Translations under genes and position numbers: made by a program | Part shown: piece by piece, positions 22,807 to 25,246 of the stretch | Numbering within the stretch: the stretch's first letter is position 1 | Layout of the letters: every line of letters starts with the position of its first letter | The notes under the pieces: model-generated | The model's input: the letters and a program-made list of their open reading frames with translations, nothing else | Databases searched by the model: none | Told to the model about the DNA's origin: nothing | Source: Pseudoalteromonas shioyasakiensis | Lineage (GTDB): Bacteria > Pseudomonadota > Gammaproteobacteria > Enterobacterales > Alteromonadaceae | Direction: 5' to 3' | DNA: 64,000 bases | NCBI RefSeq assembly: GCF_019134595.1 | Contig: NZ_CP077770.1 | Coordinates: 1,508,001 to 1,572,000, forward strand

Positions 22807-22880
22807 TATAAAAATTTTGAAAGTAATTTTTAGTTCTCGGGTCTTGTTTAATAACCCTTTATAAAAAAGCGAGTCATCGA

Positions 22881-23369
22881 ATGAACACAGTTAAGAAAAA
22901 TTCAATTGCATTAACATTAGGTGCGGTTGTAGTAGGTGCGTCAAGTTTTGCAGCCACTGATGCCAGTGCAAACCCATTTGAATTTCAGCAAATGCAAGCA
23001 GGCTATCAGCTAGATGCCGCTGAAGGTAAGTGTGGCGAAGGTAAATGCGGCGCAGACAAAAAAGCAGCTAAAGAAGGTAAGTGCGGCGAAGGTAAATGTG
23101 GCGCAGACAAAAAAGCAGCTAAAGAAGGCAAGTGCGGCGAAGGTAAATGTGGCGCAGACAAAAAAGCAGCTAAAGAAGGCAAGTGCGGCGAAGGTAAATG
23201 TGGCGCAGACAAAAAAGCAGCTAAAGAAGGTAAGTGCGGCGAAGGTAAATGTGGCGCAGACAAAAAAGCAGCTAAAGAAGGTAAGTGCGGCGAAGGTAAA
23301 TGTGGCGCAGACAAAAAGAAAGCTAAAGAAGGTAAGTGTGGCGAAGGTAAATGTGGTTCTAACCACTAA
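22881..23369 (+). CDS. HvfA-type RiPP precursor with 14 EGKCG motifs
   Basis: 162 residues. N-terminal Sec-type leader (about 1-31, ending ATDASAN), a short linker, then seven copies of a 17-residue unit EGKCGEGKCGADKKAAK (last copy truncated, ending SNH). Each unit holds two EGKCG motifs, giving 14 cysteines and none elsewhere. EGKCG is the core motif of HvfA from Haemophilus influenzae, whose cysteines are converted by the MNIO enzyme HvfB with HvfC into copper-binding oxazolone/thioamide groups. The next two genes encode exactly those partners. So this is very likely a secreted, modified metal-binding peptide. The number of motifs and paired arrangement are notable. ATG 22881 lacks a strong ribosome site. 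Confidence 0.88.
   Translation: MNTVKKNSIALTLGAVVVGASSFAATDASANPFEFQQMQAGYQLDAAEGKCGEGKCGADKKAAKEGKCGEGKCGADKKAAKEGKCGEGKCGADKKAAKEGKCGEGKCGADKKAAKEGKCGEGKCGADKKAAKEGKCGEGKCGADKKKAKEGKCGEGKCGSNH
23022..23357 (+). repeat. 51-bp tandem repeat inside hvfA
   Basis: Six full 51-base units and one partial, nearly identical at DNA level; differences are mostly third-position changes (GGT/GGC, TGT/TGC) plus AAA-to-KAK in unit six. Period equals 17 codons, so gain or loss of units keeps frame. Long open frames on the other five frames here are by-products of this repetition. Confidence 0.95.
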
Positions 23370-23386
23370 GCGCTCATTTAGCTTTT

Positions 23387-23411
23387 AAAAGGGCCGTAAA
23401 GGCCCTTTTTA
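23387..23411 (+). terminator. Intra-operon terminator/attenuator between hvfA and hvfB
   Basis: AAAAGGGCC / GGCCCTTTT stem with GTAAA loop and T run, 17 bases after the hvfA stop and directly before the hvfB ribosome site (AGGAGGT). It should cut most transcripts after hvfA and let some through to the enzyme genes, giving excess precursor. Confidence 0.8.
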
Positions 23412-23423
23412 GTAGGAGGTAGT

Positions 23424-24287
23424 ATGTTAAAAGAATCAGTAGCTGGTTTTGGGCAGGTTGGTTTAGGTTTGCGCCGAGAAATGCTTGATGAAATGCTCAT
23501 TGATGTTCCAAAACCCATTGAGTTTTTAGAAGTTGCGCCAGAAAACTGGCTAAAGCTTGGGGGACGTTTTGGTAAACAATTTAAACAGCTTACCGAAAAA
23601 CATGCCTTTGTATGCCATGGCTTATCGTTATCAATTGGTTCACCAGCAGCGCTTGATATTGACTTTGTGCAATCGCTTAAAGCCTTTTTTAAAGAGCATA
23701 ATATTCGTTTATTCAGCGAACACTTAAGCTACTGCTCGGGCGAAGGGCATATGTACGATTTAATGCCTATACCATTTACTGAAGATGCAATTAAACATGT
23801 GGCCTCTCGTATTAGGCAAGTACAAGATATTCTAGAGCAGCCAATTGCCATCGAAAATGTCTCTTACTATGGCGCCCCTGGCCAACAAATGACAGAACTT
23901 GAATTTACTAATGCTGTTTTAGAAGAAGCGGATTGTAAACTGCTGCTCGACGTGAATAACATTTACGTTAATTCGATTAATCATGGTTACGACGCTGAGC
24001 AATTCTTAGCGGCCTTACCAACAAAACGTATTGCCTATGGGCATGTTGCGGGCCACTACACTGAGGCCGAAGATTTACTGGTTGATACCCATGGTGCGCC
24101 AGTTATCGATCCTGTTTGGCAATTGCTTGGAAAAGCTTATGAAGTTCATGGGGTATTTCCTACCTTGTTAGAGCGTGATTTTAATATTCCGCCGATGAGT
24201 GAGTTATTAGCTGAGCTGAAAACCATTGAAGCACTGCAGCAAACAGCTAACAAGCAAAACCAAGCAAGGGTGAAATGCAGTGCCTAA
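23424..24287 (+). CDS. DUF692 / MNIO iron oxidase (HvfB-like)
   Basis: 287-residue TIM-barrel enzyme of the multinuclear non-heme iron oxidative family (MbnB, HvfB). Putative iron ligands are in VCHGLSLSIGS, LFSEHLSYCSG, IAIENVSYY, LLLDVNNIYVNS, IAYGHVAGH, VDTHGAPVIDP and LLERDF, the usual order for the family. It should oxidise cysteines of the EGKCG core. It has a strong ribosome site and overlaps the next gene by 8 bases. Target assignment rests on adjacency to the EGKCG precursor; other MNIO enzymes act on different peptides. Confidence 0.9.
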   Translation: MLKESVAGFGQVGLGLRREMLDEMLIDVPKPIEFLEVAPENWLKLGGRFGKQFKQLTEKHAFVCHGLSLSIGSPAALDIDFVQSLKAFFKEHNIRLFSEHLSYCSGEGHMYDLMPIPFTEDAIKHVASRIRQVQDILEQPIAIENVSYYGAPGQQMTELEFTNAVLEEADCKLLLDVNNIYVNSINHGYDAEQFLAALPTKRIAYGHVAGHYTEAEDLLVDTHGAPVIDPVWQLLGKAYEVHGVFPTLLERDFNIPPMSELLAELKTIEALQQTANKQNQARVKCSA

Positions 24288-25038
24288 TAATTTTACCAAA
24301 GTGCAGCAAGCGTTTATGGCGCATATACGCGACCCTCAGCAACATGCTAAGCCTAGCGATGTTGAAGAGCGCCGGATGGCGATTTATCGCGACTTATTTT
24401 TTAATAATGTGGATGGGTTTGTTAGCTCTGCGTATCCAGTACTAAAAAGTTTATATTCAGAGCAAGCTTGGCATAGCCTCGTTAGGCAGTTTTTTAGCCA
24501 GCATGATTGTAAATCTCCTTATTTTTTAGATATTGCAGGGGAGTTTTTGGCCTTTCTTGCTAATGACTATGAAGTGCAAAGTGATGATCCCGCGTTTATG
24601 TTAGAACTAGCGCACTATGAATGGGTTGAGCTCGATGTATCGGTTGCTCAAGAGGTGCCAGAAGAAGTGAGCTTATCGGCTCATCAAGTGACAAGCTCTG
24701 CATTATTCTTAAGTTCGCTTGCGCGTAACTTGAGTTACAGTTTTCCTGTTCATACCATCAGTGTAGATAATCAACCAAGTGAACCTGCGGCACAACCAAG
24801 TTACTTTGTGGTTTATCGTGATAGTGATGACGAAGTACAATTTTTATCGACAAATGCGATGACCGCATTACTTCTTAGTATCATAGAATCTCAGCCGGGT
24901 GCAGATTTTAATGATGTATGCCAAGCAGTTGCAGAGCATGCGCCTCAATTTAGCCAAGAGCAGCTGTATCAGGGAGCGCTCAATACCTTAAGTGCCATGG
25001 CAGAGCGCGGCATTGTGGTGACTAATACATTGGTTTAA
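24280..25038 (+). CDS. DUF2063 partner protein (HvfC-like)
   Basis: 252 residues. N-terminal DUF2063 domain (about 5-100; QQAFMAHIRDPQQHAKPSDV, YPVLKSLYSEQAWHSLVRQF, HYEWVELDVSV) once annotated as 'putative DNA-binding' but now known in HvfC/MbnC-type proteins to recruit the precursor peptide to the MNIO enzyme. The C-terminal part is a winged-helix-like region. It overlaps hvfB by 8 bases, so the two are co-translated, fitting an obligate complex. Confidence 0.86.
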   Translation: MPNNFTKVQQAFMAHIRDPQQHAKPSDVEERRMAIYRDLFFNNVDGFVSSAYPVLKSLYSEQAWHSLVRQFFSQHDCKSPYFLDIAGEFLAFLANDYEVQSDDPAFMLELAHYEWVELDVSVAQEVPEEVSLSAHQVTSSALFLSSLARNLSYSFPVHTISVDNQPSEPAAQPSYFVVYRDSDDEVQFLSTNAMTALLLSIIESQPGADFNDVCQAVAEHAPQFSQEQLYQGALNTLSAMAERGIVVTNTLV

Positions 25039-25123: not shown

Positions 25124-25246
25124 ATGTCGAATGATAAAGACTTTAAAGATCCGTTCAATGCAACTTATTTCATTGCGTTTTTAGCTGTATTCGGTGGCAT
25201 TGGCTGTCTAAACGCTATTCTTGGTTGGATCACTTCTTTATCTTAA
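25124..25246 (+). CDS. 40-residue single-span membrane peptide
   Basis: Small ORF MSNDKDFKDPFNATYFIAFL... with a charged N-terminus and one hydrophobic segment (about 15-38) containing a single Cys. An AAAGGTAG ribosome site lies 6 bases before the ATG, and a terminator follows, so it reads as a real gene. It sits 85 bases after hvfC. HvfD, the DoxX-like membrane protein often found at this place, is absent; whether this peptide belongs to the cluster is unknown. I do not recognise the family. Confidence 0.65.
   Translation: MSNDKDFKDPFNATYFIAFLAVFGGIGCLNAILGWITSLS

Follow-up and report, generated by a model that had tools for sequence, protein, structure and literature searches.

The hvfABC genes and their products

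The window, by which we mean the whole stretch of 64,000 nucleotides that was analysed, carries on its + strand the three genes hvfA, hvfB and hvfC. The first of these, hvfA (22881..23369), encodes a precursor peptide of 162 amino acids with 14 EGKCG motifs and 14 cysteines. Residues 1-30 (22881..22970, +), read by eye, make up a putative Sec signal peptide that ends in DASA and is followed by NPF; next come the segment NPFEFQQMQAGYQLDAA (22971..23021, +) and an array of seven EGKCGEGKCG pairs and six lysine-rich spacers (23022..23357, +), which read ADKKAAK except for the last one (ADKKKAK), and the chain closes with the tail SNH. At the DNA level the array consists of a 51-bp unit in 6.6 copies with 97% matches and a score of 614 in Tandem Repeats Finder, figures that speak against a chance origin. 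HvfA scores 145.5 bits against NF050188 (cut-off 95) and contains six stretches that match the NCBIfam doublet model NF050137 ('KCGExKCG_twice'), and the seven paired units, 14 motifs and 14 cysteines described in the original prediction are confirmed on the reading frame. Two other identities were rejected, namely that of bufferin Buf1 (DUF2282), as the precursor has no Pfam match and the BufB model NF050167 scores 270.1 against a cut-off of 310, and that of methanobactin, as the MbnB model TIGR04159 scores 36.4 against a cut-off of 325.

The sequence ANPF is kept across the HvfA precursors of the genus and NPF-x(6-8)-GY[QM] is present in 95/95 of them, a conservation that makes NPFEFQQMQAGYQLDAA a candidate recognition sequence for HvfC. 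This idea is weakened by the report that FonBC tolerates single alanine changes ahead of the core (PMC12668002, cited here and below, like PMC8888699, PMC7907618, PMC3511200, PMC13419390, PMC12538549 and PMC11795689, from excerpts of its text).

The gene hvfB (23424..24287, +) encodes an MNIO (DUF692) enzyme of 287 amino acids (NF003818, 445.8 bits with a cut-off of 360; PF05114, 357 bits), which by homology is predicted to form 5-thiooxazole. It overlaps by 8 bases with hvfC (24280..25038, +), which starts with GTG and encodes a DUF2063/RRE partner protein of 252 amino acids (NF050145, 314.4 bits with a cut-off of 142; PF09836, PF22106). Both products thus lie above the curated cut-offs, and the predicted pair of overlapping genes stands. 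The iron ligands of the MNIO active site, whose absence from a structural alignment would have spoken against the original prediction, are present in HvfB and conserved in the genus: H65, H100, E144, D176, N179, H207, D221, H223, E250 and D252 are found in 106-107 of 107 genus HvfB proteins, the sole exception being the interrupted frame of one locus (L158, see below). Residues E144 to D252 were mapped directly by alignment to MbnB and 3bww and to the ligand list of VcMbnB (PMC8888699), and H65 and H100 were assigned via conservation only. Residues R17, R18 and F253 are kept as well and match by motif the Arg-Arg and Phe of FonB that are described as substrate-selecting (PMC12668002).

Between hvfA and hvfB lies a hairpin followed by T residues (AAAAGGGCC-GTAAA-GGCCCTTTT, 23387..23409, +), which is a candidate attenuator. 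The gap between the two genes in the window folds at -18.5 kcal/mol, and in our own scan a hairpin with a T-run occurs in 65/95 genus gaps (raw count). Downstream, between hvfC and apt, there is a frame for a 40-residue single-span membrane protein (MSNDKDFKDPFNATYF..., 25124-25246, +) with no Pfam or NCBIfam match; a small frame weakly like it occupies the same place in loci of Shewanella, Aliiglaciecola, Paraglaciecola and Aestuariibacter.

Conservation and array variation within the genus

Among genus genomes searched, one per species, HvfB is present in 107/108, G006 being the only one without hvfB at E 1e-20. A match to hvfC lies on the same strand in 107/107 loci and a divergent dus gene in 96/96 loci that have more than 2 kb upstream, and this near-universal arrangement marks hvfABC as a core locus of the genus. 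The nearest named HvfB relatives are those of P. shioyasakiensis and close strains (98% identical). The window's own genome has one DUF692 gene in all; more than one HvfB match was seen in 49/108 genus genomes, and the extra copies, found elsewhere in these genomes and with 35-40% identity among the matches listed, probably belong to other RiPP classes.

NF050188 scores genomes per stretch, and in this mode 0/108 genus genomes pass its cut-off, so units were counted on reading frames instead. Ten of the 107 loci were left out as hvfA ran off the contig end or was absent, and of the remaining 97 two more were dropped (L133 with masked bases, L135 cut), which gave 95 arrays. The number of motifs per precursor ranges from 4 to 58; 14 is both the mode (27/95) and the median, 24/95 precursors have more, 44/95 have fewer, and the number is even in 77/95. 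The array of the window was therefore wrongly called unusually repetitive. The 1,338 E[GA]KCG motifs of the 95 arrays fall into 644 doubles, 38 singles and 4 triples. Even among the nine genomes with HvfB at least 92% identical, the window's included, the count varies from 13 to 17 motifs, and in one of them (L071) a Phe replaces a Cys.

Spacers vary among species in both length and sequence. With stretches that hold a broken doublet counted in, most of them (522/538) are 5-13 residues long, their length is uneven within 40/92 arrays, and they are rich in lysine, with hydrophobic or aromatic residues at 47/4,455 positions. The EGKCGEGKCG pair is thus the conserved unit, and unit number and spacer vary fast. 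With the doublet near-fixed and the spacers variable and poor in hydrophobic residues, we infer that the doublet is the unit both for modification and for metal binding, and that the spacers join these units as flexible linkers. Third-position divergence is 0.287 within arrays versus 0.36-0.37 between distant species and in the closest species is the same within arrays as between species, and concerted evolution of the units is only moderate.

Several loci deserve separate mention. The longest array, with 58 EGKCG motifs (L158, G045:C1:574090-578502), is followed by an hvfB with an in-frame stop at about codon 146, which may be a pseudogene or a sequencing error; this array may thus lack a working enzyme at its locus. 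Another precursor (L137, G037) has 27 KCG motifs, mostly in EGKCG-EAKCG doublets, the second motif being altered in most units. Assemblies break inside or beside the hvfA array at 11/107 loci (L079, L099, L103, L108, L123, L129, L135, L143, L144, L152 and L162), so that unit counts from such draft genomes are unreliable.

A predicted promoter element common to hvfA, hvfX and an ECF sigma factor gene

An alignment of the region upstream of hvfA from 28 diverse species shows, besides a stretch by the start codon, two conserved blocks, TGAAA and GGTCT. In the window they form the element TGAAA-N17-GGTCTT (22818..22845, +), which by its conservation is a predicted ECF-type promoter. An exact TGAAA-N-GGTC[TA] precedes hvfA in 86/95 genus arrays, with a spacing of 17 or 18 only when 13-20 is allowed; of the nine others, eight have CGAAA and one (L110) has neither. 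The window contains one match versus 0.39 expected from shuffles, so that the evidence lies in conservation and not in the single match, and a genome-wide search for the looser pattern TGAAA-N14/19-GGTCTW found no enrichment (36 matches versus 32 for the reversed control).

The same element stands before a gene for an ECF sigma factor in the window's own genome (C1:2683258-2683767), 13 bases ahead of its start, and this gene is followed by one for a DUF3379 protein. In the best 30 of 45 genus genomes searched the element before ecf is exact in 23/30 and has one mismatch in 7/30; before gor, which encodes glutathione reductase, it is exact in 12/30 of the best 30 of 45, which suggests that gor is a partial member of the regulon. 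The gor locus L199/L218 corresponds to G000:C1:3222466-3223821. A third copy, again exact, precedes hvfX (DoxX family; NF050144, 208 bits with a cut-off of 80), which in the own genome lies about 450 kb from hvfABC; no DoxX gene was found beside the cluster in the window. The presence of HvfX in a genome is a trait that is not universal in the HvfA/captophorin family. In the genus hvfX was found in 41/45 genomes at E 1e-30, and G006, which has no hvfB, is also without hvfX, like three others of the 45. In the best 30 of the 41, with loci placed by tblastn, the element before hvfX is exact in 18/30 and has one mismatch in 12/30.

Shuffled versions of the upstream stretches (ecf/gor, hvfX and other-genus sets) gave 0.07-0.33% exact matches and 2-4% with one mismatch. 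Among 454 control stretches, each upstream of another ATG frame with 150 or more codons at the genus loci, eight matched exactly, and these were frames overlapping hvfA (3), gor (1) and ecf (4), the others giving 0/446; matches with one mismatch preceded 20/454 control frames. A common GAAA-N17/18-GGTCT element thus stands at hvfA, at the unlinked hvfX and at one ECF sigma factor gene with DUF3379. No published report of an element common to the three was found in a literature search that lay mostly outside the subscription journals.

The element and DUF3379 beyond the genus

In the family of Pseudoalteromonas DUF3379 is present in 169/196 genomes and HvfA in 139/196, eight genus genomes included. 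The element precedes hvfA of other genera in nearly all of 32 genomes with DUF3379, taken from those with listed coordinates (27/32 exact, 4/32 with one mismatch, 1/32 with three), and in 1/7 without DUF3379 (G154, 85% complete, exact). These seven are those with listed coordinates of ten HvfA-positive family genomes that do not stand among the listed DUF3379 matches, from which the absence was inferred, and in one of them (L280) the chosen hvfA start codon is doubtful. The Fisher p values for DUF3379 present versus absent, 1.5e-5 with up to one mismatch and 8.6e-4 for exact matches, ignore kinship, six of the 32 genomes repeating a genus and three of the 7 sharing one. Among named loci the element occurs in 6/9 of Alteromonadales and Shewanella (one locus incomplete) and in 0/11 others (Neptuniibacter, Oleispira, Nitrosomonas and the like). 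The ecf frame of other genera was located in 18/20 loci (L318 and L331 are outside the count) and is preceded by an exact element in 13/18, by one with a single mismatch in 4/18 and by one with three mismatches in 1/18. In Arsukibacterium indicum (L018) hvfABC, hvfX (235 bits), ecf and DUF3379 (206 bits) follow one another on one strand, and the ECF sigma factor is 59% identical over 156 residues to that of Pseudoalteromonas.

By its model, DUF3379 is a putative anti-sigma factor of the membrane whose outer domain may resemble RseB; it carries an invariant His-Cys-His. A sequence search of the PDB gave nothing credible, the best E being 0.082 for an unrelated entry, and Foldseek on its own, with the model against the PDB, gave no match at E 0.001. 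A literature search with most subscription journals outside its range found no paper with the term DUF3379, and the papers that join DUF692 or DUF2063 with ECF sigma factors concern, to judge by titles and abstracts, other systems.

Discussion

The hvfABC locus is nothing out of the ordinary for Pseudoalteromonas and belongs to a family of modified, copper-binding peptides that has been described before; it is probably under the control of a newly recognised stress-sensing switch. The original prediction held that the cluster had no description for this genus. The genus is in fact covered by PMC12452194 (2025), which reports double-EGKCG 17-residue repeats in Pseudoalteromonas with up to 58 cysteines, as in the precursor of P. 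piscicida; nothing essential sets those Buf_EGKCG/oxazolin precursors apart from the one with 14 cysteines described here. With the cluster already documented the original claim adds little, and its assignment to the hvfABC RiPP family with paired cysteines agrees with published relatives (fontiphorin, oxazolin, gonophorin and MmrA of Microbulbifer).

We are highly confident that the locus as a whole represents a vertically kept core captophorin (Buf_EGKCG/oxazolin) pathway under an autoregulated ECF/DUF3379 switch. Judging from characterised relatives, HvfC would bind the N-terminal part of HvfA and activate HvfB, which would convert each Lys-Cys to 5-thiooxazole. HvfA would be exported by Sec and act in the periplasm as a buffer with many sites for Cu(I) along its chain. 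Transcription of hvfA would depend on the autoregulated ECF sigma factor, held by DUF3379 as its membrane anti-sigma factor, and the same sigma factor would also drive hvfX at its separate locus, as well as gor in some of the species. Such ECF/DUF3379 control is most likely: the promoter pattern and the operon context are observed, and binding of the sigma factor and the nature of the signal are what we infer.

Would a different ECF sigma factor or sigma-E serve hvfA just as well, the element reflecting a similar -10 only? The own genome does have 12 sigma-70 region 2 matches, and GGTCT is similar to the -10 of E. coli sigma-E promoters. We nevertheless consider this unlikely, since the DUF3379-linked gene is the only sigma gene at the 12 loci to be preceded by the element with at most one mismatch (a single further match at these loci lies before a LysR-type frame), the element co-varies with DUF3379 across genera, and Arsukibacterium has the gene order hvfABC-hvfX-ecf-DUF3379. 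More speculative is how the switch would be thrown. With somewhat less than even confidence we propose that DUF3379 is a one-piece anti-sigma factor, RseA-like inside and RseB-like outside, whose His-Cys-His binds copper or is oxidised and thereby frees the ECF sigma factor to turn on hvfABC and hvfX, and gor in some species, throughout the Pseudoalteromonas family and Shewanella. In the sigma-E pathway RseA and RseB are two proteins, whereas DUF3379 is one and carries the invariant His-Cys-His. Copper is one candidate inducer; in H. influenzae the hvf genes respond to HOCl via RpoE2 (PMC7907618).

As to the chemistry, the loss of about 4 Da per cysteine that the original prediction expected agrees with published relatives, but the oxazolone/thioamide groups that it named, the original assignment for oxazolin as cited in excerpts of PMC12452194, are very improbable in the modified chain. 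Alkylation-assisted HMBC gave 5-thiooxazole, with -4 Da per Cys, for fontiphorin, oxazolin and gonophorin, for which copper binding and aggregation are among the reported results (PMC12668002), and the original oxazolin group now accepts the revision and describes a mixed-valent diiron cofactor (PMC13419390). The absorbance of 5-thiooxazole lies at about 305 nm. In Microbulbifer 8 H are lost per two-Cys cassette (PMC12538549), and FonA is processed in vitro with two repeats and not with one (PMC12668002). The suggested role in copper binding agrees with the work on relatives and would by analogy extend to this peptide.

It has also to be asked in what form the array acts. The published AlphaFold2 model of the P. 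byunsanensis homologue (PMC12452194) would have a long array fold as a β-helix with the cysteines inside, like a copper storage protein. We regard such a fold as improbable here: AlphaFold2 gave the HvfA of the window, which is a different protein from that of PMC12452194, a mean pLDDT of 35.8 and no secondary structure (5 near-identical rows), the spacers are uneven in length and nearly without hydrophobic residues, and the program is reported to invent confident β-solenoids for perfect repeats (PMC11795689). A protease might instead cut at the spacers and release two-Cys peptides, as is left open in the excerpts of PMC12668002 and as their lysine content would allow; this we think rather doubtful, as the cluster consists of three genes only and encodes no protease. 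The reading that we prefer remains that of one flexible chain of modified doublets.

The comparison with known systems places the regulation in a wider frame. H. influenzae HvfABC/HvfX (oxazolin) shares the HvfA, HvfB and HvfC equivalogs and has its hvf genes under an ECF sigma factor, all four requiring RpoE2 under HOCl, and a similar regulon is under SigE in Neisseria (PMC7907618). It differs in having 6 target cysteines versus 14 here, in hvfX, which here lies at another locus, and in the anti-sigma partner, the 67-aa HrsE there and predicted to be DUF3379 here. Fontiphorin (FonABC) and Microbulbifer MmrABC resemble the present system in their EGKCG repeats and three-gene cluster, and their loss of 4 Da per Cys and binding of copper are predicted for it too; they have fewer repeats and other spacer sequences. 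The bufferins of Caulobacter (SigF/NrsF) likewise have an ECF sigma factor that co-regulates MNIO-RiPP operons, and differ in the DUF2282 precursor, the promoter GTAACC-N16-CGAA and the DUF1109 anti-sigma factor (PMC3511200).

With the predicted regulon DUF3379 gains a proposed function, and hvfABC, hvfX and a sigma factor gene are linked across large chromosomal distances. Array length changes fast and the doublet hardly at all, so that the precursors form a natural set of variants with which to study how many sites per chain one MNIO enzyme processes. In addition, the regulon makes the signal for production of a bacterial 5-thiooxazole metallophore testable in a marine genus and, if the proposed role of DUF3379 is true, these marine bacteria would have a metal or oxidant sensor dedicated to their copper-peptide pathway.
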